This document shows positions 3,569 to 38,306 of a stretch of 38,322 nt of DNA, in pieces. A program made the translations under genes and the position numbers. Numbering within the stretch: the stretch's first letter is position 1; each line of letters starts with the position of its first letter. The DNA is from Steroidobacteraceae bacterium. Lineage in GTDB: Bacteria; Pseudomonadota; Gammaproteobacteria; Steroidobacterales; Steroidobacteraceae. The stretch spans positions 1-38,322 of the forward strand of contig JALHTE010000196.1 in the NCBI GenBank assembly GCA_022865595.1, read 5' to 3'. Below the pieces are notes generated by a model that had not been told where the DNA came from, made no database searches, and saw only the letters and a list, made by a program, of their open reading frames with translations.

Positions 3569-4585
3569 TCAGGTGGGGTCCGCCTTGTCCGCGGGCGGCA
3601 TGGGCATGGCCGGTACCGGGGGACGGCCAGGCGCCGGGGGGGCCGCGTGGCCGCGACCGTGCATCGCGCCTCGGGGCGGCATGGTCACATCGAGCTCCAT
3701 GCGCTTGCGATCGCGCAGGATGCCGAGCTTCACCTTGTCGCCGGGCTCGTAGGACTGCAGGATGCGGAACGCCTGGCCGGGGCTCTCCGGCGCGCGCCCT
3801 CCGATCGTCACCAGCACGTCCCCGTCTGCGAGTCCGAGTCCCGGCCCGGCCGGCGCACGGACCACCAGTAGCCCGCTGTCGGCACCGAAATACTTGCCGA
3901 GCCCGGGCGTGATCGTCACCAGCTCGAGTGGGCCAAATCCCGGCTCCTGGAGCATGAATCGGTGGAAACCGGGCAGCGGCATCCCCTCATGCATTTCGAT
4001 CTCCATCTCCATTTCGTGGTCGCCCATCATGTTCGAGAACATCGGCCCTGCCGCTGTCGCCTTGACGCTGGCGGTCGCGCGCTTGCCGTCACGCAGGTAC
4101 TGCACCTTCACCGCCTGGCCCGGCTTCACGTCGCGCATGTAAGTGACCAGCTGCGAGGCCGGGTTTCGACCCTCGGACCGCTTCAGTGCCTGGCCATCCA
4201 CGGCAACGATGACGTCGCCGGCCCGCAGCCCCGCGGCCTCCGCCGGGCCGCCCGGACTCACGCCGACGATCTCGACGCCGTCGCTGCGTTGACCGGTACC
4301 ACCGATATTGACACCGAGCATCGCCCCACGTCGCTCGCCCTGGATCATCTTGACGATCTCGATCTGCTGGTCGCCGTAAAGCTCGCCGGTCAGTCGTGCG
4401 ACCTCCTGCGCCGCGGAATCGAGCTCGGCGCGCGCGTCTGCGAGCTGCTTTTCGAGTGCGGCCCGGTTGGCTTCGGGTGCCTGCTGGTCGGCCGGGGCGG
4501 CCCCGGCGGCATTTCCGCTGACTACAAGCAGCGCGACAGCCACGCTACCGGCAAATTTGCTGCCAATGTGCATCCTGGGAATCAT
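3569..4585 (-). CDS. Secreted protein with two PDZ domains and a Met/His/Glu-rich linker
   Basis: A 338-residue protein with a signal peptide (residues 1 to about 29, cleavage near GNAAGAA), so probably periplasmic or lipid-free envelope-associated. A predicted coiled coil (about 36-70) is followed by PDZ domain 1 (about 86-176; VEIVGVSPGGPAEAAGLRAG), an unusual stretch at 182-215 rich in Met, Glu and His (MGDHEMEMEIEMHEGMP), and PDZ domain 2 (about 216-300). The tail is Pro/Met/His-rich (308-338). It has no trypsin-like or other protease domain, unlike DegS/DegP. It is the third gene after the sigma and anti-sigma genes, 23 bases downstream, so it is probably co-transcribed. PDZ domains bind C-termini of misfolded envelope proteins in DegS/RseP-type signalling; a sensing or scaffolding role here is inference, and metal binding by the Met/His segments is only a possibility. 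Confidence 0.8.
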   Translation of the reverse strand: MIPRMHIGSKFAGSVAVALLVVSGNAAGAAPADQQAPEANRAALEKQLADARAELDSAAQEVARLTGELYGDQQIEIVKMIQGERRGAMLGVNIGGTGQRSDGVEIVGVSPGGPAEAAGLRAGDVIVAVDGQALKRSEGRNPASQLVTYMRDVKPGQAVKVQYLRDGKRATASVKATAAGPMFSNMMGDHEMEMEIEMHEGMPLPGFHRFMLQEPGFGPLELVTITPGLGKYFGADSGLLVVRAPAGPGLGLADGDVLVTIGGRAPESPGQAFRILQSYEPGDKVKLGILRDRKRMELDVTMPPRGAMHGRGHAAPPAPGRPPVPAMPMPPADKADPT

Positions 4586-4608
4586 TCCTGTATCTCCTGG
4601 TTAACAGA

Positions 4609-5232
4609 CTACAGAGCAACCCGCTGCGCCTCGACGTAACGCAGGCTCACCAATGAACGCATGACCTCCACGCGGGCGCGCCACAGCTGCTCGGCGTCTT
4701 CCGCCGTCGTTCCCGCGGCATCCGCCAGCGACAGCTGCTGGTCGATCCACTGCACACGCGCCTGCAGCGCATCGATCGGTATCGAGGTTTCGGCGCGTTC
4801 GATGGCCGGACGCGACGGCAGCGCGGCCAGCGCACGCTCGAGGTCGAGCGAACGATCGACGAGCGAAGCGACTGTTGTATCCCTGGCGGGCTGCTGGGCC
4901 GCCACGGTATCCGGGGCGCTGGCCGGACCGCTGCCGCTGCCATACAGCGTTGCGAACAGCGCGAGCGAGGCAACAGACGCCGCCGCGACCACACGCAAGG
5001 CGATCGTGCGGCGCCGTGCGGACTGCTCTCGTGCCGCAATCCGCGCGCCCACGAACCGCCAGGCCCCCGGATTCGGCTCGACTTGTGGCAGCGCGGCGAG
5101 GTTCTGGCGAACCTCGCGCATCTGCTGCACGGCCGCAGCGCAGTCGCGGCAGGACTCGACGTGCGTGCGCACGGTCGCGTCCACCGGTTCGCCGTCGCGG
5201 ACGCTCAGGAGCTGGTCGATACGGGCATGCAT
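4609..5232 (-). CDS. Anti-sigma factor, zinc-finger type, single-pass membrane protein
   Basis: A 207-residue protein with a short cytoplasmic N-terminal domain holding the HxxxCxxC anti-sigma motif (His24, Cys28, Cys31), one membrane segment at about 78-97 (VVAAASVASLALFATLYG) after the basic SARRRT, and a periplasmic domain of about 105 residues predicted helical. This is the zinc-associated anti-sigma (ZAS) layout, in which the N-terminal domain holds the sigma factor until a periplasmic signal releases it. The ATG at 5232 lies inside the sigma gene, overlapping by 28 bases, the common arrangement that keeps the two proteins in balance. The family is clear; the inducing signal cannot be read from the sequence. 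Confidence 0.88.
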   Translation of the reverse strand: MHARIDQLLSVRDGEPVDATVRTHVESCRDCAAAVQQMREVRQNLAALPQVEPNPGAWRFVGARIAAREQSARRRTIALRVVAAASVASLALFATLYGSGSGPASAPDTVAAQQPARDTTVASLVDRSLDLERALAALPSRPAIERAETSIPIDALQARVQWIDQQLSLADAAGTTAEDAEQLWRARVEVMRSLVSLRYVEAQRVAL

Positions 5233-5840: not shown

Positions 5841-5861
5841 GGCCGCCGGTATCGCGCGGCC
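5841..5861 (-). terminator. Weak hairpin downstream of the L,D-transpeptidase gene
   Basis: GGCCGC (5841-5846) and GCGGCC (5856-5861) form a 6-bp stem with a nine-base loop, 23 bases past the stop of the transpeptidase gene and just upstream of the candidate sigma promoter. On the minus strand a short T-rich stretch follows only after about 13 bases, so intrinsic termination is uncertain. Confidence 0.3.
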
Positions 5862-5883
5862 GGGACGGGGCCAGGGGCGGGCT

Positions 5884-6594
5884 TCAGCCCCTTGGCCTGG
5901 TGCCGGCGCTCGCGGCAGCGACTCTCGCACCCCGGGCCGTGCCACAGGTGAGCGTCGGGGCTTCCTTGAGCCACTTCTGGTCGGGGTAGTAGGCGAACAG
6001 CAGCGCCCCGCCCTTCAGTGTGTCGATCATCACCCGCGCCACTTCCTTGCGCACTGCCGGGCAGCCCCAGCTGCGGCCGAGCCGGCCCAGTCGCTCGGCG
6101 AAGGCCTCGCTCACGTAGGGTGCGCCGTGCATGACGATGGCGCGGGACAACGCGTTGTCGTTGAAACCGGCGTCCAGGCCGCGCAGCCGCAGCGAGTAGC
6201 CATTGCTGCCGGTGTAGGTCTCAGTGGCCTGGAACAGGCCAAGACTCGACATCTTGCTGCCTTCGACGTTCGAGAATCTCGCTGCCAGTTGCTCGCCGGT
6301 ATTGCGCCCGTGCGCAACGAGTTCCTGGAAAAGCAGCCGACCACGATCCACGTCGAACACCCAGAGGCGCGGCGTCGTCGAGGGCAGCGAGTAGTCGATT
6401 ACCGCGAGACGGTGGAAACCGTCGAGCATGCCCTGCTTGCGGGCGCAATCGGCGGCACGCGCAGCGAGCGTCAGAACTTCGGGGTTGGCAGACGGCGCCG
6501 CGGCAACGAGTTCCGCGACCAGGCTGTCCTCGGCCCTGGCGGGCCCCGCGAGGAGTGTCAACAGCAAAAAAGCTGCCCCGAAACGTCGTCGCAT
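5884..6594 (-). CDS. Secreted murein L,D-transpeptidase catalytic-domain family protein (YkuD_2 type)
   Basis: A 236-residue protein with a signal peptide (cleavage near residue 21, LLAGPARA-E). The catalytic core carries HG at 156-157 (IVMHGAPY) and RSWGCPAV, with nucleophile Cys178. That is the HxxG/SxGC pattern of L,D-transpeptidases in the YkuD_2 variant. Such enzymes act on the peptide stems of peptidoglycan in the periplasm; most members of this subfamily have no proven substrate. The segment MSSLGLFQATETYTGSNG (115-132) is typical of the subfamily. It lies downstream of the tRNA-Leu region on the opposite strand and upstream of the ECF operon on the same strand, 88 bases from it. Whether the sigma factor controls it is unknown. 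Confidence 0.88.
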   Translation of the reverse strand: MRRRFGAAFLLLTLLAGPARAEDSLVAELVAAAPSANPEVLTLAARAADCARKQGMLDGFHRLAVIDYSLPSTTPRLWVFDVDRGRLLFQELVAHGRNTGEQLAARFSNVEGSKMSSLGLFQATETYTGSNGYSLRLRGLDAGFNDNALSRAIVMHGAPYVSEAFAERLGRLGRSWGCPAVRKEVARVMIDTLKGGALLFAYYPDQKWLKEAPTLTCGTARGARVAAASAGTRPRG

Positions 6595-10842: not shown

Positions 10843-13800
10843 CTACATGCTGCGCCGGTATCGCCCGCCGACCTCGTACAGCGCGTGCGAGATCGAGCCC
10901 AGCGACGCGATCTTGACGGTCTCCATCAGTTCGGCGAACACGTTGCCACCCTCCGCGGCCGCCTTCTGCAGGCGCGCGAGCGCAGCAGGCCGCGCGGCTG
11001 CGTTGCGCGCGAGGAAGTCATGCACCGAACTGACCTGGTCGGCTTTCTCCTGGTCCGTCGAGCGGATCAGCTCCGCGCCGAGGATCTCCTCGTTGCCGTC
11101 CCCGGCACCGAGGAAGGTGTTGACGCCGACCACCGGCAGCCGACCGTCGTGCTTCATCGTCTCGTAGTAGAGGCTCTCTTCCTGGATGCGGCTGCGCTGG
11201 TACATGGTCTCCATCGCGCCGAGCACACCGCCGCGCTCCGAGATGTTGTCAAACTCGCGATAGATGGCCTCCTCGACCGCATCGGTGAGGTCCTCGATCG
11301 CGAATGAACCCTGCCAGGGGTTCTGCGTCTTGTTGAGGCCGAGTTCCTTGTTGATGATCAGCTGGATCGCGACCGCGCGGCGCACCGACTCCTCGGTGGG
11401 CGTGGTGATCGCCTCGTCGTACGCATTCGTGTGCAGGCTGTTGCAGTTGTCGAACAGCGCGTAGAGCGCCTGCAGCGTGGTGCGGATGTCGTTGAACTGG
11501 ATTTCGCGCGCGTGCAGGCTCCGCCCCGAGGTCTGGATGTGATACTTGAGCATCTGCGAGCGCGGCCCGCCGCCGTACACGTCGCGCATCGCGCGCGCCC
11601 AGATGCGCCGCGCGACGCGCCCGATCACCGCGTACTCCGGGTCCATGCCATTGGAGAAGAAGAACGACAGGTTCGGCGCGAATTCGTCGATGTCCATGCC
11701 GCGCGCAAGGTAGTACTCGACGATCGTGAATCCGTTTGCCAGCGTGAACGCGAGCTGGGAGATCGGGTTCGCGCCCGCCTCGGCGATGTGGTAACCGGAA
11801 ATCGACACCGAGTAGAAATTGCGGACGCCGTTGTCAGCGAAGAACTGCTGGACGTCACCCATCATGCGTAGTGCAAATTCGGTGGAGAAGATGCAGGTGT
11901 TCTGCGCCTGGTCTTCCTTGAGGATGTCGGCCTGCACGGTGCCGCGCACCAGCGACAGGGCCTCGGCACGGATCTCCTGGTACGTTTCACGATCCACCAG
12001 CTGGTCGCCCGTGACCCCCAGCAGGCCGAGCCCGGAGCCGTCATGCCCCGGAGGCAGGTCTCCCCGGTATACGGGACGTTCGCGTCCGCGGAAGATCTCC
12101 GCGATACGCCGCTCCGCGTCGTCCCAGCGGCCCGATTCGCGCAGGTGCCGTTCGACCCGCTGGTCTACCGCGGTGTTCATGTACATCGCGAGGATCATCG
12201 GCGCCGGGCCATTGATCGTCATCGAAACGGACGTGGTGGGCGCGCAGAGGTCGAAGCCCGAATAGAGCTTCTTCATGTCGTCGAGCGTGGCAATCGACAC
12301 ACCCGAGTTGCCGATGCGACCGTAGATGTCCGGACGCTCGTCGGGGTCCTCGCCGTAGAGCGTGGTCGAGTCAAACGCAGTGGAAAGTCTTGCCGCGCCG
12401 TGACCCGCGGCCAGGTAATGGAAGCGGCGGTTGGTGCGTTCCGGCCCGCCCTCACCGGCGAACATCCTGGTCGGGTCCTCCTCCTCGCGCCGGTACGGGT
12501 ACACGCCGGCTGTGTACGGGAAGTGACCCGGCAGGTGCTCCCGGAGAAGGAACGCGAGCAGGTCGCCCCAGTCCCGGTATTTCGGTATCGCGAGCTTCGG
12601 CACCCGGGTATGGCTCAGCGTCTCGGTGTAATTGTCGCCACGGACCTCGCGGCCGCGCACGACGTACGAGTACTCAGGGTCTGTGGCCCCGGTCGCGAGC
12701 GCGGGCCACTTTCGCAGCAGGTCCACCGCCTCGGCCCCGAGCGCATCGAGCGCGTCGTTGTAGGCCGCGCGCAGGCGTGCGAGCGAGGCGTCGGCCGGCG
12801 CGTCAATCGCGGCCTCCGGATAACGGTCAAGCGGCGCCGGCAGCAGCGGGTCTTCCAGCGCGCGCAGCGCCTCGTGCAGGCTGTTGGCCCGACCCGCGGC
12901 CTGCGCCCGGTGCTCGACGTCAGTGGCCGCCCGCCTGCCGTTGGCTGCGATCTCCGCCAGGTAGCGGGTGCGGCCGGCCGGCACTAGTGCGTGCCGCTCG
13001 ACGAGCTCGACGGGGCCCGGATCGGCCACGTTCCAGCGTTCGGTGTCGCCAGTCTTCGCGCCGATGCTGGCGCATAGCGCCGCGAACAGCCGGTTGACGC
13101 CCGGGTCGTTGAAGCGGCTCGCGATGGTCGGGTACACCGGCACGTCAGCATCGGGAACCTGGAATGCCACGTGGTTGCGCCGCCACTGCTTGCGCACGTC
13201 GCGCAGGGCATCCTCTGCCCCGCGCTTCTCGAACTTGTTAAGCGCGATGAGCTCGGCGAAGTCGAGCATGTCGATCTTCTCGAGCTGGCTGGCCGCACCG
13301 TATTCGCTGGTCATCACGTACATCGGCACGTCAACCAGGTCCACGATCTCCGAATCGCTCTGCCCGATGCCGGCCGTTTCCACCACGACCAGGTCGAAAT
13401 TCGCATAGCGCAGCAGGTTCAGCACGTCGGCGAGCACGGCGCTGGTGGCGAGATTCTGCCGTCGCGTTGCGAGCGAACGCATGAAGACCTGCGGCGAAGC
13501 GAGCGAGTTCATGCGGATGCGGTCACCGAGCAACGCCCCGCCGCTGCGTCGCCGCGTCGGGTCCATCGCCACCACGGCGATGTTGTAGCCGGGAAAGTGC
13601 CGCACGAAGCGCATCAGCAGCTCGTCGGTCAGGCTCGACTTGCCGGCGCCACCGGTGCCCGTGATGCCGATCACCGGCGCACGGTGCTCGACGCGCTCCA
13701 CCGCCTTGCGCAGTGTCTCGCGAACGCCTGGAATTTCCTCGTCGGACTCGAGCGCGGAAATGGTCCTGGCAATCTGCTGGTGGTCGCGCGGACCGAGCGG

Positions 13801-14292
13801 CCCGAACCGGAACGGCTGCCGCGGCTGGTGCCTCACGCGACCGATGACGTCGTCGATCATGCCTTCGAGGCCGAGCTTGCGGCCGTCTTCGGCTGAATAG
13901 ATTCGCTCGACCCCGTACTGCTGCAGTTCTTCGACCTCGTGTGGCGCAATGGTGCCGCCGCCCCCGACGATCACGCGAATGTGACCGGCATCTTGCTCGC
14001 GCAGCATGTCCACCATGTAGCGGAAGTACTCGTTGTGGCCGCCCTGGTAGGAACTGACGGCGATGCCGTCGGCGTCTTCCTGGATCGCGGCGCGGACGAT
14101 GTCGGCAACGCTGCGGTTGTGACCGAGATGCACGACCTCGGCGCCGTGCGCCTGGAGAAGGCGCCGGATGATATTGATCGCGGCATCGTGCCCGTCGAAC
14201 AGCGACGCGGCACTTACGAATCGCAGAGGCGCCACCTCGTCCCGCTCGCTGGGCTGCGGTCGCGCCGTGCCGGTCGACGATCCTGCATTCAT
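10843..14292 (-). CDS. icmF: Fused isobutyryl-CoA mutase IcmF (B12 domain, MeaB-like G-protein, mutase)
   Basis: From ATG 14292 it has 1149 residues. Domain order is: cobalamin-binding domain (about 22-160; LFDGHDAAINI with His35 as the likely lower cobalt ligand), a MeaB-type GTPase chaperone (P-loop GITGTGGAGKSS at 209-220; MDPTRRRSGGALLGDR; NKFEKRGAEDALRDV), a linker, and the acyl-CoA mutase barrel to the C-terminus. This layout is IcmF, not MutA/MutB. Phe611 (TRMFAGEGG) and Gln797 (DQAQNTCIFS) occupy positions where methylmalonyl-CoA mutases have Tyr and Arg, the pair reported to favour isobutyryl-CoA/butyryl-CoA (and pivalyl-CoA/isovaleryl-CoA). The reaction is an adenosylcobalamin radical rearrangement in the cytoplasm. 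A TTG eleven codons upstream (14325) with AGGGA before it is an alternative start. It is divergent from the thiolase gene. Confidence 0.93.
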   Translation of the reverse strand: MNAGSSTGTARPQPSERDEVAPLRFVSAASLFDGHDAAINIIRRLLQAHGAEVVHLGHNRSVADIVRAAIQEDADGIAVSSYQGGHNEYFRYMVDMLREQDAGHIRVIVGGGGTIAPHEVEELQQYGVERIYSAEDGRKLGLEGMIDDVIGRVRHQPRQPFRFGPLGPRDHQQIARTISALESDEEIPGVRETLRKAVERVEHRAPVIGITGTGGAGKSSLTDELLMRFVRHFPGYNIAVVAMDPTRRRSGGALLGDRIRMNSLASPQVFMRSLATRRQNLATSAVLADVLNLLRYANFDLVVVETAGIGQSDSEIVDLVDVPMYVMTSEYGAASQLEKIDMLDFAELIALNKFEKRGAEDALRDVRKQWRRNHVAFQVPDADVPVYPTIASRFNDPGVNRLFAALCASIGAKTGDTERWNVADPGPVELVERHALVPAGRTRYLAEIAANGRRAATDVEHRAQAAGRANSLHEALRALEDPLLPAPLDRYPEAAIDAPADASLARLRAAYNDALDALGAEAVDLLRKWPALATGATDPEYSYVVRGREVRGDNYTETLSHTRVPKLAIPKYRDWGDLLAFLLREHLPGHFPYTAGVYPYRREEEDPTRMFAGEGGPERTNRRFHYLAAGHGAARLSTAFDSTTLYGEDPDERPDIYGRIGNSGVSIATLDDMKKLYSGFDLCAPTTSVSMTINGPAPMILAMYMNTAVDQRVERHLRESGRWDDAERRIAEIFRGRERPVYRGDLPPGHDGSGLGLLGVTGDQLVDRETYQEIRAEALSLVRGTVQADILKEDQAQNTCIFSTEFALRMMGDVQQFFADNGVRNFYSVSISGYHIAEAGANPISQLAFTLANGFTIVEYYLARGMDIDEFAPNLSFFFSNGMDPEYAVIGRVARRIWARAMRDVYGGGPRSQMLKYHIQTSGRSLHAREIQFNDIRTTLQALYALFDNCNSLHTNAYDEAITTPTEESVRRAVAIQLIINKELGLNKTQNPWQGSFAIEDLTDAVEEAIYREFDNISERGGVLGAMETMYQRSRIQEESLYYETMKHDGRLPVVGVNTFLGAGDGNEEILGAELIRSTDQEKADQVSSVHDFLARNAAARPAALARLQKAAAEGGNVFAELMETVKIASLGSISHALYEVGGRYRRSM

Positions 14293-14447
14293 GCCTGTGC
14301 CCTGTTCATTGCGCAATTGACTCAAAGTTTATCCCTACAGTGAATCACATATTACCCGTGCGCCTGCCGGTCCTTTCACCGTGTTCCCCGGCCATGGACC
14401 GTCACCACGGGCGACCGACACCTGGTGCCTCGATGCGGAGAGCCGTA

Positions 14448-32907: not shown

Positions 32908-33681
32908 TCAGTACTTTGGCTTGCGCTTTTCGACGAACGCCCGCACGCCCTCGATGCCGTTCGGGTGCAGCCCCTGGGCAGCGATGGCGCGGCCCTCGGC
33001 GGCCATCTGCGCCTCGATGCCGGGGTCGGACCGCTCGATCAGGCGCTTCACGGCCCCGTAGGATTCTGTCGGACCATCCGCGAGTCGCGTGGCCAGCGCC
33101 TGCGCCTGCGCCAGCACCTCCGCGTCCTCGACGACCTGGTTGATGAGGCCCCAGGCAAGCGCCTCCTCGGCCCCCAGCACGCGGTTGGTCAGGAACAGTT
33201 CGAGTGCGCGGCGGCGACCGACGATTCGCGGCAGCAGGAACGACGTACCGCAGTCCGGTGCCATGCCGATGCCGGTGTAGGCCAGCGTGAACCTGCTGCC
33301 CTTGCCCGCGATCGCGAGATCCGCAGCGCACGCGAGGCCAACGGCACCGCCAGCCGCTGTCCCGTTCACCGCCGCGATCACTGGCGCGCGCGTGCGTGTG
33401 AACGCACTGATGGCAGCATGAATATAGGTGGTCAGCTCATTCAGGTACGCGCCCACGGCGTCGCCCTGCCCGGCCATGCCGCGCACGTCGCCGCCGAAGC
33501 AGAAATTCTTGCCGGCCCCCGTGAGTACAACGGCACGGACGCCGCGGTCGGCCTCGCAACGCAGGGCTGCGTCGAGAAGGGCGCGCCCCATGTCCATGTC
33601 CAGGACGTTGCCAGAGTCGGGACGATTCAGCGTCAGGGTCGCGACGCCATCGGTGACCTGGACCAGGACGGCACTGCTCAT
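32908..33681 (-). CDS. Enoyl-CoA hydratase/isomerase family protein, PaaG-like
   Basis: A 257-residue crotonase-fold protein from ATG 33681 (GGAGGT upstream). The oxyanion-hole motifs are present (NFCFGGDVRGM, about 59-69; NGTAAGGAVGLACAAD, 106-121). However, the two glutamates of true hydratases are replaced: position 115 is Gly and position 135 is Tyr. Instead it has Asp143 in IGMAPDCGTSFLLPR, the single acid used by PaaG-type enoyl-CoA/epoxyphenylacetyl-CoA isomerases. It is thus more likely a double-bond isomerase than a hydratase. It lies 67 bases after the ferredoxin gene and 150 bases before the thiolase on the same strand, in the same catabolic block. Confidence 0.88.
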   Translation of the reverse strand: MSSAVLVQVTDGVATLTLNRPDSGNVLDMDMGRALLDAALRCEADRGVRAVVLTGAGKNFCFGGDVRGMAGQGDAVGAYLNELTTYIHAAISAFTRTRAPVIAAVNGTAAGGAVGLACAADLAIAGKGSRFTLAYTGIGMAPDCGTSFLLPRIVGRRRALELFLTNRVLGAEEALAWGLINQVVEDAEVLAQAQALATRLADGPTESYGAVKRLIERSDPGIEAQMAAEGRAIAAQGLHPNGIEGVRAFVEKRKPKY

Positions 33682-33692
33682 GCGACCTCCGT

Positions 33693-33711
33693 GCGAGGCT
33701 CTTCGCCTCGC
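33693..33711 (-). other. Hairpin upstream of the PaaG-like gene
   Basis: GCGAGGC (33693-33699) and GCCTCGC (33705-33711) make a perfect 7-bp stem with a five-base loop between the ferredoxin stop and the ribosome site of the PaaG-like gene. It could end or shield the ferredoxin message. There is no T-tract. Confidence 0.35.
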
Positions 33712-33748
33712 GATGCAAGATGAAGTGGATCGACTCCCGCGGCTCCGG

Positions 33749-34066
33749 TCACTCGTCTGGCGCAATCTGCAGCGGCAGGCCGTCCAGCGCATCGGTGAAC
33801 TCCACCTGGCAGCTCAGCCGCGAGCGTGCCGCGTCGTAGTGCTGCAACTCGACCAGCAACTCCTTTTCGTCGCTCTGCGGCGTGGGCAGGCGCGACATCC
33901 ACTCGGGCTCGATGAATATGTGGCAGGTCGCGCAGGAACAAAGGCCGCCGCAGATGGCAGTCACGCCATAGTCGAACTCGCGGAGCGTCTCCATGAGCTT
34001 GAGTCCCTCCCGGCCCTCGACCTCGTGCAGATGCCCGTCACGATCCGTCACCATCATCTTCGCCAT
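33749..34066 (-). CDS. [2Fe-2S] ferredoxin, adrenodoxin/ISC type
   Basis: A 105-residue plant/vertebrate-type ferredoxin. The cluster ligands are Cys39, Cys45, Cys48 and Cys86 (CGGLCSCATC...LSCQVEF; spacing x5, x2, x37); Cys43 is an extra Cys inside the loop. The spacing fits adrenodoxin, putidaredoxin and ISC ferredoxins. Such proteins pass electrons to cytochrome P450s, Rieske or sulfur-assembly enzymes. The iron-sulfur assembly genes are not nearby, and neither P450 nor reductase is in the window, so the partner is unknown. GAGG precedes the ATG. The gene is followed by the PaaG-like gene and preceded by the thiamine operon, 87 bases away. Confidence 0.92.
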   Translation of the reverse strand: MAKMMVTDRDGHLHEVEGREGLKLMETLREFDYGVTAICGGLCSCATCHIFIEPEWMSRLPTPQSDEKELLVELQHYDAARSRLSCQVEFTDALDGLPLQIAPDE

Positions 34067-34153: not shown

Positions 34154-35065
34154 TTACCGGCCGGAGGCGGCAAGACGGCCAGCCAGCACCGTCGCGCGGG
34201 TGGCACATTCGTGGCCAGCCGCCGGATTGCGCGCGGCCCAGGCCAGGTACCAGAGCCACTGCACGCAGTCGAACACCGTGCAAGCCGCGTCGAGCATCGT
34301 CGCCTCCATCCCAGCGCCCCGATCATAGGCGTCGAGCAACGCCGCCCGTTCCGACCCCGTGTATTCGTGCTGGCAGGCAAGACTCGCAAGGTCGAACAGC
34401 GGGTCACCGACGCCACCATATTCCCAGTCAACGATCCAGAGACGGTCGCCGTCGTCGACCAGGTTCAGGTGATGCAGGTCGTTGTGGCATGGAACGAGCG
34501 GTGAGCGCCGTGAGTCCAGCAGCTCGATGGCCGCTGCGGCATTGCCGAGAATCTCCTCTTCCCGGGCCCGCGCTGCGTGGATCAGTTCCTCGACCCCGGC
34601 ACCTGCACCGGGACTCGAGGCGGGCAACGGGGCGGTCGCGCGCAACTGTGCCTCGAGGCTGCGCGCCCGTGCCGCGAAATCCACGATGCCAACATCCGTC
34701 GGAGCCACGAGGCCGTGCAGCACCCGCAGTCGTTCCGCGACGCGCTCAATATTCCGGGCCTGATGTGCGTCCTCACGCCGCCACGTCTCGCCCGGGATGA
34801 AATGCGTCACCAGCAGGCCGTTCGCCGGCTCGCAGGCAATGAGCGGCGGCGCCAACCCCGCGGAGCTCACGAGACCGAGCAGCGCGCACTCGCTCCAGCG
34901 GTCCACACCCAGCGTCGCGGACTCCGGGCCACCGAGGCGCACGAACCAGCTGCGCCCGCCATGCTCGGCCTTCCACGCGTAGTTACTGAGCCCGCCGGGA
35001 ACCGGCTCGAGCGTCGCGTCCGCGAGTGCGCGTGTCGCATCCCGGGCCCGAAGTGCCGCGCGCAC
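34154..35065 (-). CDS. Choline/aminoglycoside kinase-fold phosphotransferase, candidate thiamine kinase
   Basis: From GTG 35065 (GGAG six bases upstream) it has 303 residues. The ATP-binding lobe contains GGLSNYAWKAE (about 24-34) and FVRLGG. The catalytic loop HNDLHHLNL (194-202) has Asp196, and IVDWEYGGVGDPLFDLA (211-227) carries the Mg-binding Asp213. This is the fold of ThiK (YcfN), choline kinase and aminoglycoside kinases. It is the last gene under the TPP riboswitch, after a PnuT-like permease, so thiamine is the favoured substrate; phosphorylation to thiamine phosphate would trap it in the cell. The substrate is inferred from context alone. Longer starts at 35104 (GTG) and 35149 (TTG, overlapping pnuT) are open but lack a good ribosome site. 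Confidence 0.82.
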   Translation of the reverse strand: MRAALRARDATRALADATLEPVPGGLSNYAWKAEHGGRSWFVRLGGPESATLGVDRWSECALLGLVSSAGLAPPLIACEPANGLLVTHFIPGETWRREDAHQARNIERVAERLRVLHGLVAPTDVGIVDFAARARSLEAQLRATAPLPASSPGAGAGVEELIHAARAREEEILGNAAAAIELLDSRRSPLVPCHNDLHHLNLVDDGDRLWIVDWEYGGVGDPLFDLASLACQHEYTGSERAALLDAYDRGAGMEATMLDAACTVFDCVQWLWYLAWAARNPAAGHECATRATVLAGRLAASGR

Positions 35066-35117
35066 GGTGGTCTCCGGCCCACCCGGCGCCGAATCCGCGT
35101 TCACCGTGCGAGCCCGT

Positions 35118-35723
35118 TCATCGCGCGTCCGTGACCGGCTCGACGCCAACGCCTCGACCAGGCTTTACGAGACACTTGCGCCACTGCAGGTAGCCGCGCA
35201 CTGCCAGCACGATGTAGACGAGGAACAGACCCGCCGTGGCATGAAATCCCTGGCTGAAATAGAGCGCCGCCGCGACCAGGTCAAACACCATCCAGTAGAG
35301 CCAGTTCTCGACCACTTTTCGGGTCATCATCCAGGTCGCGATGACGCTTCCCCAGGCGACGAACGAGTCCGCGTAGCGAACGAGCGGGTTCTCGTCGCCC
35401 GCGAGCAGGTACACGTTTGCCACCGTGGCGACAATCACAAATGCCGCTGCCGCCAGGTGCCGGCCGAGCGGCCAGGCACTCACGCTCAACTCGCCCGGCT
35501 GGCCGTGGCTCGCCCGCCAGGAGATCCAGCCGTAGACAGACATCGCGACGTAGAACCCCTGGAGTGCGGCCTGCATCGTGAGGCCTGCGCGTGCGAACAG
35601 CAGCAGGTAGATGGCTCCGCTTGCCCCCGCCGCAGGCCAGCACCAGAGGCTCTGCCGCGTCGCAAGCAACACGTATGAAAGCGCGAGCGCCACTGCCACC
35701 CATTCGACCAGGCTCGATCCCAC
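35118..35723 (-). CDS. pnuT: PnuC-family permease, probable thiamine transporter PnuT
   Basis: A 201-residue membrane protein with about seven hydrophobic segments. The N-terminal RQSLWCWPAAGASGAIYLLLF, the middle FYVAMSVYGWISW, and the late KVVENWLYWMVFDLVAAALYF and YIVLAVRGYLQWRK are the PnuC family landmarks (WxWP and ENWxYW). PnuC proteins move nicotinamide riboside, and the PnuT branch moves thiamine, by facilitated diffusion coupled to phosphorylation inside. Position behind a TPP riboswitch and a thiamine-binding protein marks it as PnuT rather than NAD-related. It begins at GTG 35723, ten bases after the upstream stop, without a clear ribosome site, so reinitiation is likely. Confidence 0.9.
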   Translation of the reverse strand: MGSSLVEWVAVALALSYVLLATRQSLWCWPAAGASGAIYLLLFARAGLTMQAALQGFYVAMSVYGWISWRASHGQPGELSVSAWPLGRHLAAAAFVIVATVANVYLLAGDENPLVRYADSFVAWGSVIATWMMTRKVVENWLYWMVFDLVAAALYFSQGFHATAGLFLVYIVLAVRGYLQWRKCLVKPGRGVGVEPVTDAR

Positions 35724-35733
35724 GTCGGTAACG

Positions 35734-36009
35734 TCAGTACTGCTTCAGGGCTTCGCGCTCGGCCGCCGTCGGTTCGCCGCCCAGCAGCTTCATCACGAAC
35801 ACCGCGCGGCCGCCGCTCGCGAACGACGTACGCGTCTCGGCCTCCAGCGCCGCGAATACCCGCTCGTGCTCGCCCGCGACCTGCGTGCTCATCGCGTTGG
35901 TCGCCACCTGCAGGCCATCGTGACGGTTCAGGCGCTCGATGAAGTCCCGAATCGGCGGGACGTAGTCTGCGTCGAGTGGATAGAGGCTGATGTCCACGGC
36001 AATGCGCAT
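35734..36009 (-). CDS. YkoF-like thiamine-binding protein (Thiamine_BP fold)
   Basis: A 91-residue soluble protein with one ferredoxin-like domain of the MTH1187/YkoF family. VDISLYPLDADYVPPIRDFIERLN (start) and ATNAMSTQVAGEHERVF (about 36-52) are the family landmarks; the domain ends near FVMKLLGG. It has no signal peptide or membrane segment, so it is cytoplasmic. In Bacillus, two-domain YkoF works with the YkoEDC ABC transporter and binds thiamine and hydroxymethylpyrimidine. Here the single domain is encoded between a TonB-dependent receptor and a PnuT-like permease with no ABC genes. A GAGGA site precedes the ATG. It may hand thiamine to the kinase or buffer it; that is inference. Confidence 0.85.
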   Translation of the reverse strand: MRIAVDISLYPLDADYVPPIRDFIERLNRHDGLQVATNAMSTQVAGEHERVFAALEAETRTSFASGGRAVFVMKLLGGEPTAAEREALKQY

Positions 36010-36045
36010 GTCGATGTCCTCGGTTCGGTTTCCGGCGTGGGGAGT

Positions 36046-38187
36046 CTAGTGCAGTGACCAGGTGAACGTAACGCCGGCCAGTTGCGGATCGCCGCGCTGT
36101 ATGTAGAGCTTGTCGGCATAGTCGGGCGGCTCGAGACCGAAGTAGAAGCCGCGCACGGCGTATTTTTCATTGAACAGGTTTCGCGCCCAGGCGTGCACCG
36201 TCCAGCGATCCGCCACGTAGCCGGCCTTCAGGTTCACGAGCACGTAGGGCTTCGACTCCTGGTCATTGCTGGTGTCGAAGTAAAACGACGCGCAACCCGT
36301 CACGTCGGCGCGCGCCATCCAGCCCCGCTCCCGGCCCCACTCGGCGGAGAGCGAATACTGGTAGGGCGGCGCGCTTGCCTGCTCGCGTCCGTCGAGGTTG
36401 CGGTCGCCGTACTGGTAGTCGAGGTACTCGCTGCCGAGCAGCCCCAGGGTCGCGCCCAGCAGCAGCGACGGTTGCGCGCGCCACGCGAACGTGGCCTCGA
36501 GGCCGTAGTTGCGGCCCTTCGCGGCGTTGCTTGTATAGAAAACGTAGGAGAGCGGATCGCCGGGATCCACCTGGTAGGACGAGGACACCTGTTCCTCGAT
36601 ACGCCACATGTAGAACACGGCCAGGTCGGCCGACAGGGTGTTTGACGGGTTGCGCAGGTGCAACCCGGTCTCGAGGTTCCAAAGGTACTCGGGATCGTAC
36701 TCGAGCAGGTCCTCCGGGATGAACTCGCCGATGTTGAAGCCGCCCGCCTTGTAGCCGCGCGCCAGCGTCGCGTACCAGGCGCTGTCGGAGCCAAAGTCAC
36801 CGGCGAGCGACAGGTGACCTCCTACCAGCGTGTTGACCGGCGAAAACCTGGCGCCGTCGCTGTCGCGGTAATCCGCGGAGCGCGTCTCGACCCGCAACCC
36901 GGCAGACAGCGTCATGCTGTCCAGAAGCCGCCATTCGGTCTCGCCGTAGGCGGCCAGATTGGTCGCGTCGTAGATGCTCTTCAGCGGCGGACCCGTGAGT
37001 TCCGACTCGAAGTAGTCGCGCTGCAGGTTGTCCTCGTTGAGGCGCAGCGCGTAGACCCCGGCCAGCCAGCCGAACCCGCCCGAGCGCGCGTCGGCGCGGC
37101 TCATGAGCCGGAGGTCTTCACCGAGCGTGCTGCGCTGCCGGTCGTAATGCGAGAAATAGTCGTAAGGGGCGTAGGCACCCCAGTACGGATCATTCGCCCA
37201 GTCGCCGTCGAAACTGTAGACGATGTCCGAGTTCGCGTAGGTAGTGGTGCTCGCGAGCGTGACCAGACCGAGGTCGCCGGTCACGCGCAGCATCGCACCT
37301 TCGGAGCGCTGCTTGTCGCGACCCGGCTGGTTCGACAGCGTGCGAAAGCTGTTGTCGAGTGAGAACGCGTCAAAACCATTGTGGATGTCGGCGTACAGCG
37401 CCGCTGCATCGACACGCCAGCCATCCGCTACCCCGAGCGTCAACTTGCCACGCAGCGTGGTCTCGTCACGATCGTTGGTGTCGTCGCGGTTGAGGTAGGC
37501 GTTGTGGCGGAATCCGTCGCTCACCGTGCGCTGGGCAGCGACCCGCCACGCCGAGTCGCTGGCCCTGCCCCAGGACCCAAGCGCGCCGCCCGCCACCAGT
37601 CCGCCGCCGATCAGGCCGTCGCCGCCAGCGGTCACTTCCGTCGAGAACTCCGGATCCACCGTTGGATCCCTGGTTCGGACGCTGATCAGCCCCGCAAGCG
37701 CGTTGGCACCGTAGCGGGTGCCCTGCGGGCCCCGCAGCACTTCGACCTGCTGCACGTCAAACGTGGTCGCTGGCGCACCAACGCCGCTGAAGTCGATGTC
37801 ATCGATCAGGAACCCCACCGACGGGTTGGGCGCGCCCTGGTACTGTTCCAGTTCGCCGATGCCGCGCAACTGGTAATAGCGGGGTCGCGAGGTGGCCCCG
37901 GACCAGTTGAGGTTCGGCACCAGGCCCACGAGATCGGCAAGATGCTGCAGTCCGGACGCCTGCACCTGGGACGTGTCAAGCACGGTCGCACTTGCCGGTA
38001 GTTCGTTCTCCGCGGCAGGTCGCAGCGAAGCGGTGACCACGATCTCCTCCAGCGGTGGCGCCTCATCCCCGGCGGTCGCTGCCAAGGGCATTGCCAGCGC
38101 AATGCCGCACGCGAGCGCGCCGAGCCGGCTGCGCGGGCGCACGCAACACCATGATTCTTCGAAACAAGCGGAAAGACTGCCGGGCAC
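36046..38187 (-). CDS. TonB-dependent outer-membrane receptor, probable thiamine receptor
   Basis: A 713-residue receptor. A signal peptide (cleavage near residue 39, LAATAG) is followed by a TonB box (LEEIVVTAS, 46-54), the plug domain (about 60-180; YYQLRGIG, VEVLRGPQGTRYGANALAG) and a 22-strand-type barrel with repeated aromatic-rich strands. The final strand reads VTFTWSLH, ending in His rather than the usual Phe. It is the first gene after a TPP riboswitch and heads the thiamine operon, matching the omr1-type receptors found under THI elements. The GTG at 38187 follows GGGAG at eight bases within the aptamer; a second GTG 15 codons later also gives a signal peptide. The likely substrate is thiamine or a derivative, by context. 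Confidence 0.92.
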   Translation of the reverse strand: MPGSLSACFEESWCCVRPRSRLGALACGIALAMPLAATAGDEAPPLEEIVVTASLRPAAENELPASATVLDTSQVQASGLQHLADLVGLVPNLNWSGATSRPRYYQLRGIGELEQYQGAPNPSVGFLIDDIDFSGVGAPATTFDVQQVEVLRGPQGTRYGANALAGLISVRTRDPTVDPEFSTEVTAGGDGLIGGGLVAGGALGSWGRASDSAWRVAAQRTVSDGFRHNAYLNRDDTNDRDETTLRGKLTLGVADGWRVDAAALYADIHNGFDAFSLDNSFRTLSNQPGRDKQRSEGAMLRVTGDLGLVTLASTTTYANSDIVYSFDGDWANDPYWGAYAPYDYFSHYDRQRSTLGEDLRLMSRADARSGGFGWLAGVYALRLNEDNLQRDYFESELTGPPLKSIYDATNLAAYGETEWRLLDSMTLSAGLRVETRSADYRDSDGARFSPVNTLVGGHLSLAGDFGSDSAWYATLARGYKAGGFNIGEFIPEDLLEYDPEYLWNLETGLHLRNPSNTLSADLAVFYMWRIEEQVSSSYQVDPGDPLSYVFYTSNAAKGRNYGLEATFAWRAQPSLLLGATLGLLGSEYLDYQYGDRNLDGREQASAPPYQYSLSAEWGRERGWMARADVTGCASFYFDTSNDQESKPYVLVNLKAGYVADRWTVHAWARNLFNEKYAVRGFYFGLEPPDYADKLYIQRGDPQLAGVTFTWSLH

Positions 38188-38191
38188 TGCA

Positions 38192-38294
38192 CCTGCTCCC
38201 TACGCCGGTATTACCCGGATCAGGTTCAACGGGTTCGCCGGTCAGCGGCATGGCCGCACCCGGCATCTCAGGCCCATTCAGGCCACCCCAAGGT
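38192..38294 (-). promoter_or_regulatory. TPP riboswitch (THI element)
   Basis: Read on the minus strand, the conserved blocks appear in order: GGGGTG (38289-38284), CTGAGA (38271-38266), ACCCGTTGAACCTGATC near 38235-38218, GGGTAATACC, and GCGTAGGGA (38205-38197). P1 can form from ACCT at the 5' end and AGGT before the GTG start. These are the nearly invariant residues of the thiamine pyrophosphate aptamer. GGGAG at the aptamer's 3' side also serves as the ribosome site of the receptor gene (GTG 38187). TPP binding should therefore directly block translation. Confidence 0.97.
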
Positions 38295-38300
38295 AGGCGC

Positions 38301-38306
38301 AGTATA
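38301..38306 (-). promoter_or_regulatory. Probable -10 element of the thiamine operon
   Basis: TATACT on the minus strand (38306-38301) would start transcription at about A38294, the first base of riboswitch helix P1. The -35 would lie at or just beyond the window edge, so it cannot be checked. Confidence 0.5.

Follow-up and report, generated by a model that had tools for sequence, protein, structure and literature searches.

A very probable thiamine scavenging operon of Steroidobacteraceae and related Gammaproteobacteria that combines a TPP riboswitch, a TonB-dependent receptor, a YkoF-like protein, a PnuT-type permease and a kinase

Background

The OMthi(omr1)-pnuT-tnr3 operon of Bacteroidetes was reportedly predicted by Rodionov et al. 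in 2002. This riboswitch-controlled operon is the closest described relative of the gene set analyzed here, and Bacteroides mutants that lack thiamine biosynthesis together with either transporter (OMthi or PnuT) require more thiamine (PMC5613172). In a recent marine survey of vitamin B1, Omr1 is treated as a transporter of unclear specificity (PMC12442306). PnuT is a demonstrated thiamine carrier, or facilitator (Jaehme 2018, as cited in PMC7749635), and Shewanella SO2713 is entered as pnuT, a predicted thiamin transporter (PMC5955497).

The operon described here comes from a Steroidobacteraceae bacterium (assembly GCA_022865595.1, contig JALHTE010000196.1; the whole stretch of 38,322 nucleotides that was analyzed is referred to below as the window) and very probably serves thiamine scavenging (import, binding and phosphorylation) in thiamine auxotrophs among the gammaproteobacterial kin of Steroidobacteraceae. 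Like the Bacteroidetes operon, it unites a TPP riboswitch, a putative thiamine TonB receptor, PnuT and a trapping enzyme; however, it additionally encodes a YkoF-like protein, and the trapping enzyme appears to be an APH/ThiK-like kinase that would act with ThiL, rather than the pyrophosphokinase Tnr3. The locus is not an omr1-pnuT-tnr3 operon proper: an APH-family kinase occupies the place of the pyrophosphokinase, and thiamine pyrophosphokinase (TIGR01378) was detected in none of 60 related genomes. With the genes present being those for the TonB-dependent receptor (TBDT), PnuT and the kinase, this bears out the statement of an earlier note on this DNA, made from the sequence alone, that neither an ABC system nor a pyrophosphokinase belongs to the set. 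The Shewanella PnuT (S. woodyi; SO2713) is likewise a PnuC-family thiamine permease in Gammaproteobacteria, and the YkoFEDC thiamine/HMP ABC transporter of Bacillus subtilis likewise includes a YkoF-family member encoded in a TPP-regulated thiamine transport operon. The B. subtilis YkoF, however, consists of two domains (~200 aa) and belongs to an ABC transporter, whereas the proteins of the present operon are single domains of ~80-92 aa linked to PnuT; assignment of the window's protein to the B. subtilis type was rejected given its single 91-aa domain and its neighbors (TBDT, PnuT and kinase, with no ABC genes).

The operon follows, with changes, the known riboswitch-omr1-pnuT scheme of scavenging and is not a new kind of system; all its parts are of known kinds, and the exact composition is apparently undescribed. 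In agreement with the earlier note, no description of the four-gene set was found in the searchable literature, a search that did not extend to Jaehme 2018, Melnick 2004, Rodionov 2002 and RegPrecise/SEED, so that novelty is not proven. The locus provides Omr1 with a complete, testable set of partners and a tie to auxotrophy, in lineages with cultured members (Steroidobacteraceae and Woeseiaceae), and pairs a protein of the YkoF family with a facilitator-type permease rather than with an ABC transporter.

Composition of the operon

The features identified in the window are as follows.

38178..38300, minus strand: TPP riboswitch aptamer (THI element, RF00059), full-length, cmscan 70.8 bits
38191..38201, minus strand: probable Shine-Dalgarno region, AGGGAGCAGGT, inside the 3' end of the aptamer, recognized by sequence
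36046..38187, minus strand: TonB-dependent outer-membrane receptor (Omr1-like), probable GTG start at 38187
35734..36009, minus strand: single-domain YkoF-like protein, 91 aa (PF07615/PF01910, profile search and fold)
35118..35723, minus strand: PnuT-type permease of the PnuC family with the WxxWxxxD motif (PF04973, E 2.7e-45)
34154..35104, minus strand: APH/ThiK-like small-molecule kinase (PF01636, E 3.6e-22), probable GTG start at 35104, alternative TTG start at 35149

The cmscan search of the window identifies the aptamer with a score of 70.8 bits against the gathering score of 54.3 (E 3.8e-12, model positions 1-105), and this is the only TPP riboswitch detected in the whole 3.09-Mb host assembly. 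The four co-directional genes that follow it encode a TonB-dependent receptor (barrel PF00593, E 1.6e-28, and Plug PF07715, E 8.3e-15, both over cut-off), which is the first gene behind the aptamer in the relatives as well, the YkoF-like protein, the PnuC-family permease and the APH/ThiK-like kinase. The cmscan and Pfam results thus confirm the gene arrangement that was originally read from the letters alone; among the gaps given at that time (36, 10 and about 52 bases), the first two are exact, but the third presupposes a later GTG, and the kinase probably starts nearer the permease, with a gap of 13 bases (GTG 35104) or an overlap (TTG 35149).

Conservation of the gene order

The four-gene order behind RF00059 is strongly conserved in relatives. 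A scan of genomes of named organisms, started with a 12-row subset of the YkoF alignment, yielded 80 loci, a sample biased towards close relatives; in 66 of these, the order TBDT-YkoF-PnuT-kinase is present and always identical. Because the same order recurs in 66 of 80 independently retrieved loci, the association of these genes is far beyond chance. These loci come from metagenome-assembled genomes (MAGs) of Steroidobacteraceae and Woeseiaceae and from the isolates Steroidobacter gossypii, S. agaridevorans, Peristeroidobacter agariperforans, P. soli and Povalibacter uvarum. A covariance model built from the aptamers of the operon family itself detects the switch in 63 of the 80 loci, namely 59 complete operons, three operons whose 3' end is cut off, and the locus L102. 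All 59 complete operons whose contig reaches far enough carry the riboswitch; in the seven complete gene sets with no aptamer match, the contig begins inside the receptor gene. By the same model, none of the nine YkoF genes with unrelated surroundings among the 80 loci has an aptamer.

Of the 60 related genomes, the host included, 47 contain the permease, and the 5-kb surroundings from 40 of these show the same succession of riboswitch, receptor, YkoF, permease and kinase, although some families possess the set without YkoF (L046, L047, L048, L051, L060 and L062). An even, class-wide sample of Gammaproteobacteria provides a less biased test than the scan of named loci. In this sample, the YkoF-like protein is found in 12 of 274 genomes; in all 12, a copy lies within ~110 bases of the permease gene, and the TPP switch is present in every case that is not cut by a contig end. 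An adjacent kinase is missing in several distant Gammaproteobacteria (L206-L209), so that trapping there must use another enzyme; the core unit therefore is riboswitch-receptor-YkoF-PnuT, with the kinase as a frequent further member.

Several observations concern YkoF-like genes in other settings. The L207 locus (3780-4951) of another gammaproteobacterium includes two YkoF-like genes in a single thiamine operon. The YkoF-like genes of L104, L109, L111 and L120 have no thiamine context at all: in L109, the gene lies downstream of that for a gamma-glutamyltranspeptidase, with an MttB homologue nearby, and the neighbors in L104, L111 and L120 are similar; a match to Rfam PYLIS_3 in L109 is located inside the coding sequence of the MttB-like protein. 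In addition, a c-di-GMP-I-GGC riboswitch is found at L093:4293-4378 and at L113:2102-2187, in each case less than a few kilobases from a stand-alone YkoF-like gene and on the opposite strand.

Probable thiamine auxotrophy and the probable cargo of the permease

The host genome (completeness 100%, contamination 5.4%) contains no match to ThiC, ThiE, ThiG or thiamine pyrophosphokinase; the last of these was also absent from all 10 distant YkoF-bearing Gammaproteobacteria tested. By contrast, the host encodes a ThiL that scores over the curated cut-off, as do 58 of the 60 genomes, and a genome with ThiL but no ThiE must obtain thiamine monophosphate in another way. Of the 51 genomes that lack ThiE, 46 carry the permease, versus one of the nine that possess ThiE (Fisher p = 4.1e-6); for ThiC, the permease is present in 45 of 51 genomes without it versus two of nine with it (p = 1.3e-4). 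The 60 genomes are related, so both p values overstate independence. In five related genomes, neither ThiE nor the permease is present, which implies either that other routes exist or that these MAGs are incomplete. Two relatives, G012 and G051, carry ThiC/ThiG along with the permease; G012, in which no ThiE scores over the cut-off, may be partly prototrophic.

A profile search started with the permease detects its similarity to the PnuC structure 4qtn (E 4.3e-19), a relationship for which the profile was needed inasmuch as a single-sequence search of the PDB gave no match. The permease contains the motif W141xxW144xxxD148, and WxxWxxxD is conserved in 38 of 39 homologues where PnuC 4qtn has WxxWxxxN; the sole homologue with WxxWxxxN, L071, stands alone, with neither a riboswitch nor a receptor, YkoF or kinase gene alongside. 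The D/N position of this motif is what we take, from work on Pnu transporters, to divide carriers of thiamine from those of nicotinamide riboside. The combination of TPP-riboswitch control with the lack of the PnuC signature WxxWxxxN is that expected of PnuT. That the protein is instead an ordinary PnuC transporter of nicotinamide riboside, in an operon with merely a loose link to thiamine, is hardly credible: its score does exceed the PnuC equivalog cut-off (TIGR01528, 50.0 versus 42.45 bits), but such a function is at odds with the TPP riboswitch in front, with the aspartate in the motif, and with the near-exclusion between the permease and ThiE, ThiC and ThiG.

The riboswitch, the WxxWxxxD motif, the near-mutual exclusion with biosynthesis and the retention of ThiL without ThiE or pyrophosphokinase together support thiamine as the probable cargo, and we infer both the substrate of the permease and the direction of transport. 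Import of a precursor or breakdown product of thiamine (HMP, thiazole or aminopyrimidine) in place of the intact vitamin is very improbable. THI-regulated precursor transporters are well known, and ykoF is described as a B1/HMP-binding protein in a gene table (PMC10881298); however, the host and almost every operon-bearing genome lack a ThiE over the cut-off with which to join precursors, and both the kinase and ThiL require thiamine or its monophosphate as input.

Import of intact thiamine followed by the action of the kinase and ThiL fits the loss of ThiC, ThiG, ThiE and pyrophosphokinase, the retention of ThiL and the near-exclusion between permease and ThiE. Under this scheme, the TonB receptor would bring scarce thiamine across the outer membrane, PnuT would allow it to equilibrate between periplasm and cytosol, the YkoF-like protein would bind free thiamine in the cytosol, and the APH-family kinase would phosphorylate it to thiamine monophosphate, which could not leave the cell and from which ThiL, encoded elsewhere, would make TPP. 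What is established here is the riboswitch, the conserved gene order, the absence of the genes for biosynthesis and for pyrophosphokinase, and the retention of ThiL. The import-bind-trap route proposed in the earlier note is, then, largely supported, with two refinements: the kinase falls under the ThiK cut-off, and the YkoF-like protein, with no apparent signal peptide, is predicted to be cytosolic.

The kinase

The catalytic residues H207xD209....N214 and D226-W-E228 (the D and E of the latter) are invariant in 28 homologues and match the HxD....N and D(W/F)E pattern of APH-type kinases. The protein reaches none of the curated ThiK cut-offs and, against the ThiK model TIGR02721, scores 84 bits, far under the curated equivalog cut-off of 299.45, and no protein in the 60 genomes exceeds that cut-off; given also the higher score of the GntI model (130 bits), the substrate is a matter of prediction and is not proven by sequence. 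Nevertheless, within the host genome the ThiK model matches this protein alone, albeit under the cut-off, and the best such match adjoins the permease in 42 of 47 permease-bearing genomes, as judged by coordinates. Together with the retention of ThiL without ThiE, these observations suggest that the protein is a thiamine kinase. Its original description as ThiK-like holds insofar as it is the best candidate for this role, but it is not a ThiK by the NCBI cut-off.

Another substrate, such as choline or ethanolamine, or the synthesis of TPP in one step is quite unlikely. The family does include choline kinases (PF01633; 3dxq and 4r77), and the protein is very divergent between loci, with 18-50% identity to the one in the window. 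Nevertheless, throughout the conserved order the kinase gene directly follows the thiamine uptake genes, the host has no other ThiK candidate, and the combination of ThiL with the lack of ThiE is sensible only if another enzyme makes thiamine monophosphate. The predicted thiamine kinase would provide the same two-step route, from thiamine through thiamine monophosphate to TPP, as the salvage by ThiK (YcfN) and ThiL in E. coli, although it falls far short of the equivalog cut-off for ThiK. To our knowledge, the E. coli ThiK is not encoded in a riboswitch-controlled transport operon. The large, divergent branch of the APH family exemplified here probably comprises thiamine kinases that are missed by the curated ThiK model.

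The YkoF-like protein

The YkoF-like protein scores 29.1 bits against PF07615 and 26.0 bits against PF01910, both over the cut-off, the latter barely. A single-sequence PDB search ranked a ribosomal protein first, whereas a profile search identifies YkoF (1s7h) with E 2.5e-10; in the homologue alignment, the residues of the SLYP and STQ motifs are invariant or nearly so. The AF2 model (pLDDT 88) best matches single-domain DUF77 proteins (YBL001c, SP2199, TM0486, MJ1052 and MTH1187), with Z scores of 11.8 to TM0486 and 10.6 to MTH1187, and YkoF appears lower down. In length and fold, the protein thus resembles the single-domain thiamine-binding proteins MTH1187, TM0486 and YqgV (DUF77, PF01910), but it is closer to YkoF by profile (SLYPL and ST motifs), and its TIGR00106 score of 18.8 is far under the cut-off of 54.7 bits. 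By eye, no signal peptide is apparent, so that the protein is predicted to be a cytosolic rather than a periplasmic thiamine binder, a role that we infer.

The tight linkage of this putative soluble thiamine binder with a facilitator-type permease is the most interesting aspect of the set. We know of no soluble partners of PnuC-family permeases. It is possible, if rather doubtful, that PnuT and the YkoF-like protein are direct partners, the latter passing thiamine on from the permease to the kinase or acting as a gate on the permease, as PII does on AmtB; if so, capture and phosphorylation would suffice for net uptake across the inner membrane, with no ABC transporter or ion gradient. A purely regulatory function, with the protein sensing thiamine and gating PnuT or the kinase as PII does AmtB, neither carrying nor storing the vitamin, is unlikely. 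It would agree with the position of this small ferredoxin-like protein, which is encoded immediately before the permease in every YkoF-bearing genome of the class-wide sample and has no ABC transporter to feed; weak Foldseek matches to PII-like proteins are also found besides the YkoF family. However, PII-like folds form a background of common ferredoxin-like folds, the alignment contains no T-loop-like insertion, and the strong matches are to the YkoF/MTH1187/TM0486 family, in which the members studied so far bind thiamine.

Control of the operon

Among 34 aligned aptamers from the window and relatives, 80 cells show changes on both sides of a pair, and 92.8% of the cells are paired versus 83% in shuffles. 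The P1 pairs are present in 73.5% of the cells, with compensatory changes at two of the four pairs. In the window, the 3' strand of P1, AGGT (38194-38191), pairs with ACCT (38294-38291) and overlaps the probable Shine-Dalgarno region, and the GTG start of the receptor gene lies 9 nt after the AGGGA of the aptamer; about half of the listed homologues have a spacing of ~5-12 nt, the others one of ~40-95 nt. In the minimum-energy fold of the ligand-free leader, P1 is not formed, and the stability is no greater than that of shuffles. The location of AGGGA inside the aptamer, the overlap with P1 and the conservation of the P1 pairs indicate that direct sequestration of the ribosome-binding site is the likely mode of what appears to be translational control. 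At low cellular TPP, the aptamer would be open and the four genes translated; binding of TPP would close P1, with part of the ribosome-binding site in it, and turn the operon off. In the L066 locus, a TPP aptamer (5856-5979) stands directly in front of the YkoF-like gene without an intervening receptor gene, and the start codon of that gene lies ~10 nt after AGGGA.

Neighboring genes

Downstream of the operon (32908-34066, minus strand), the window contains genes for a 105-aa 2Fe-2S ferredoxin and an enoyl-CoA hydratase, which recur behind the operon in many relatives (e.g., L032, L056, L061, L095 and L133). They were rejected as members of the system, being present behind only part of the loci, with the ferredoxin gene of L035 on the other strand. 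Elsewhere in the window (10843-14325, minus strand), a single frame of 1160 aa combines B12-binding, MeaB and methylmalonyl-CoA mutase domains, the architecture of an IcmF-type fused mutase.
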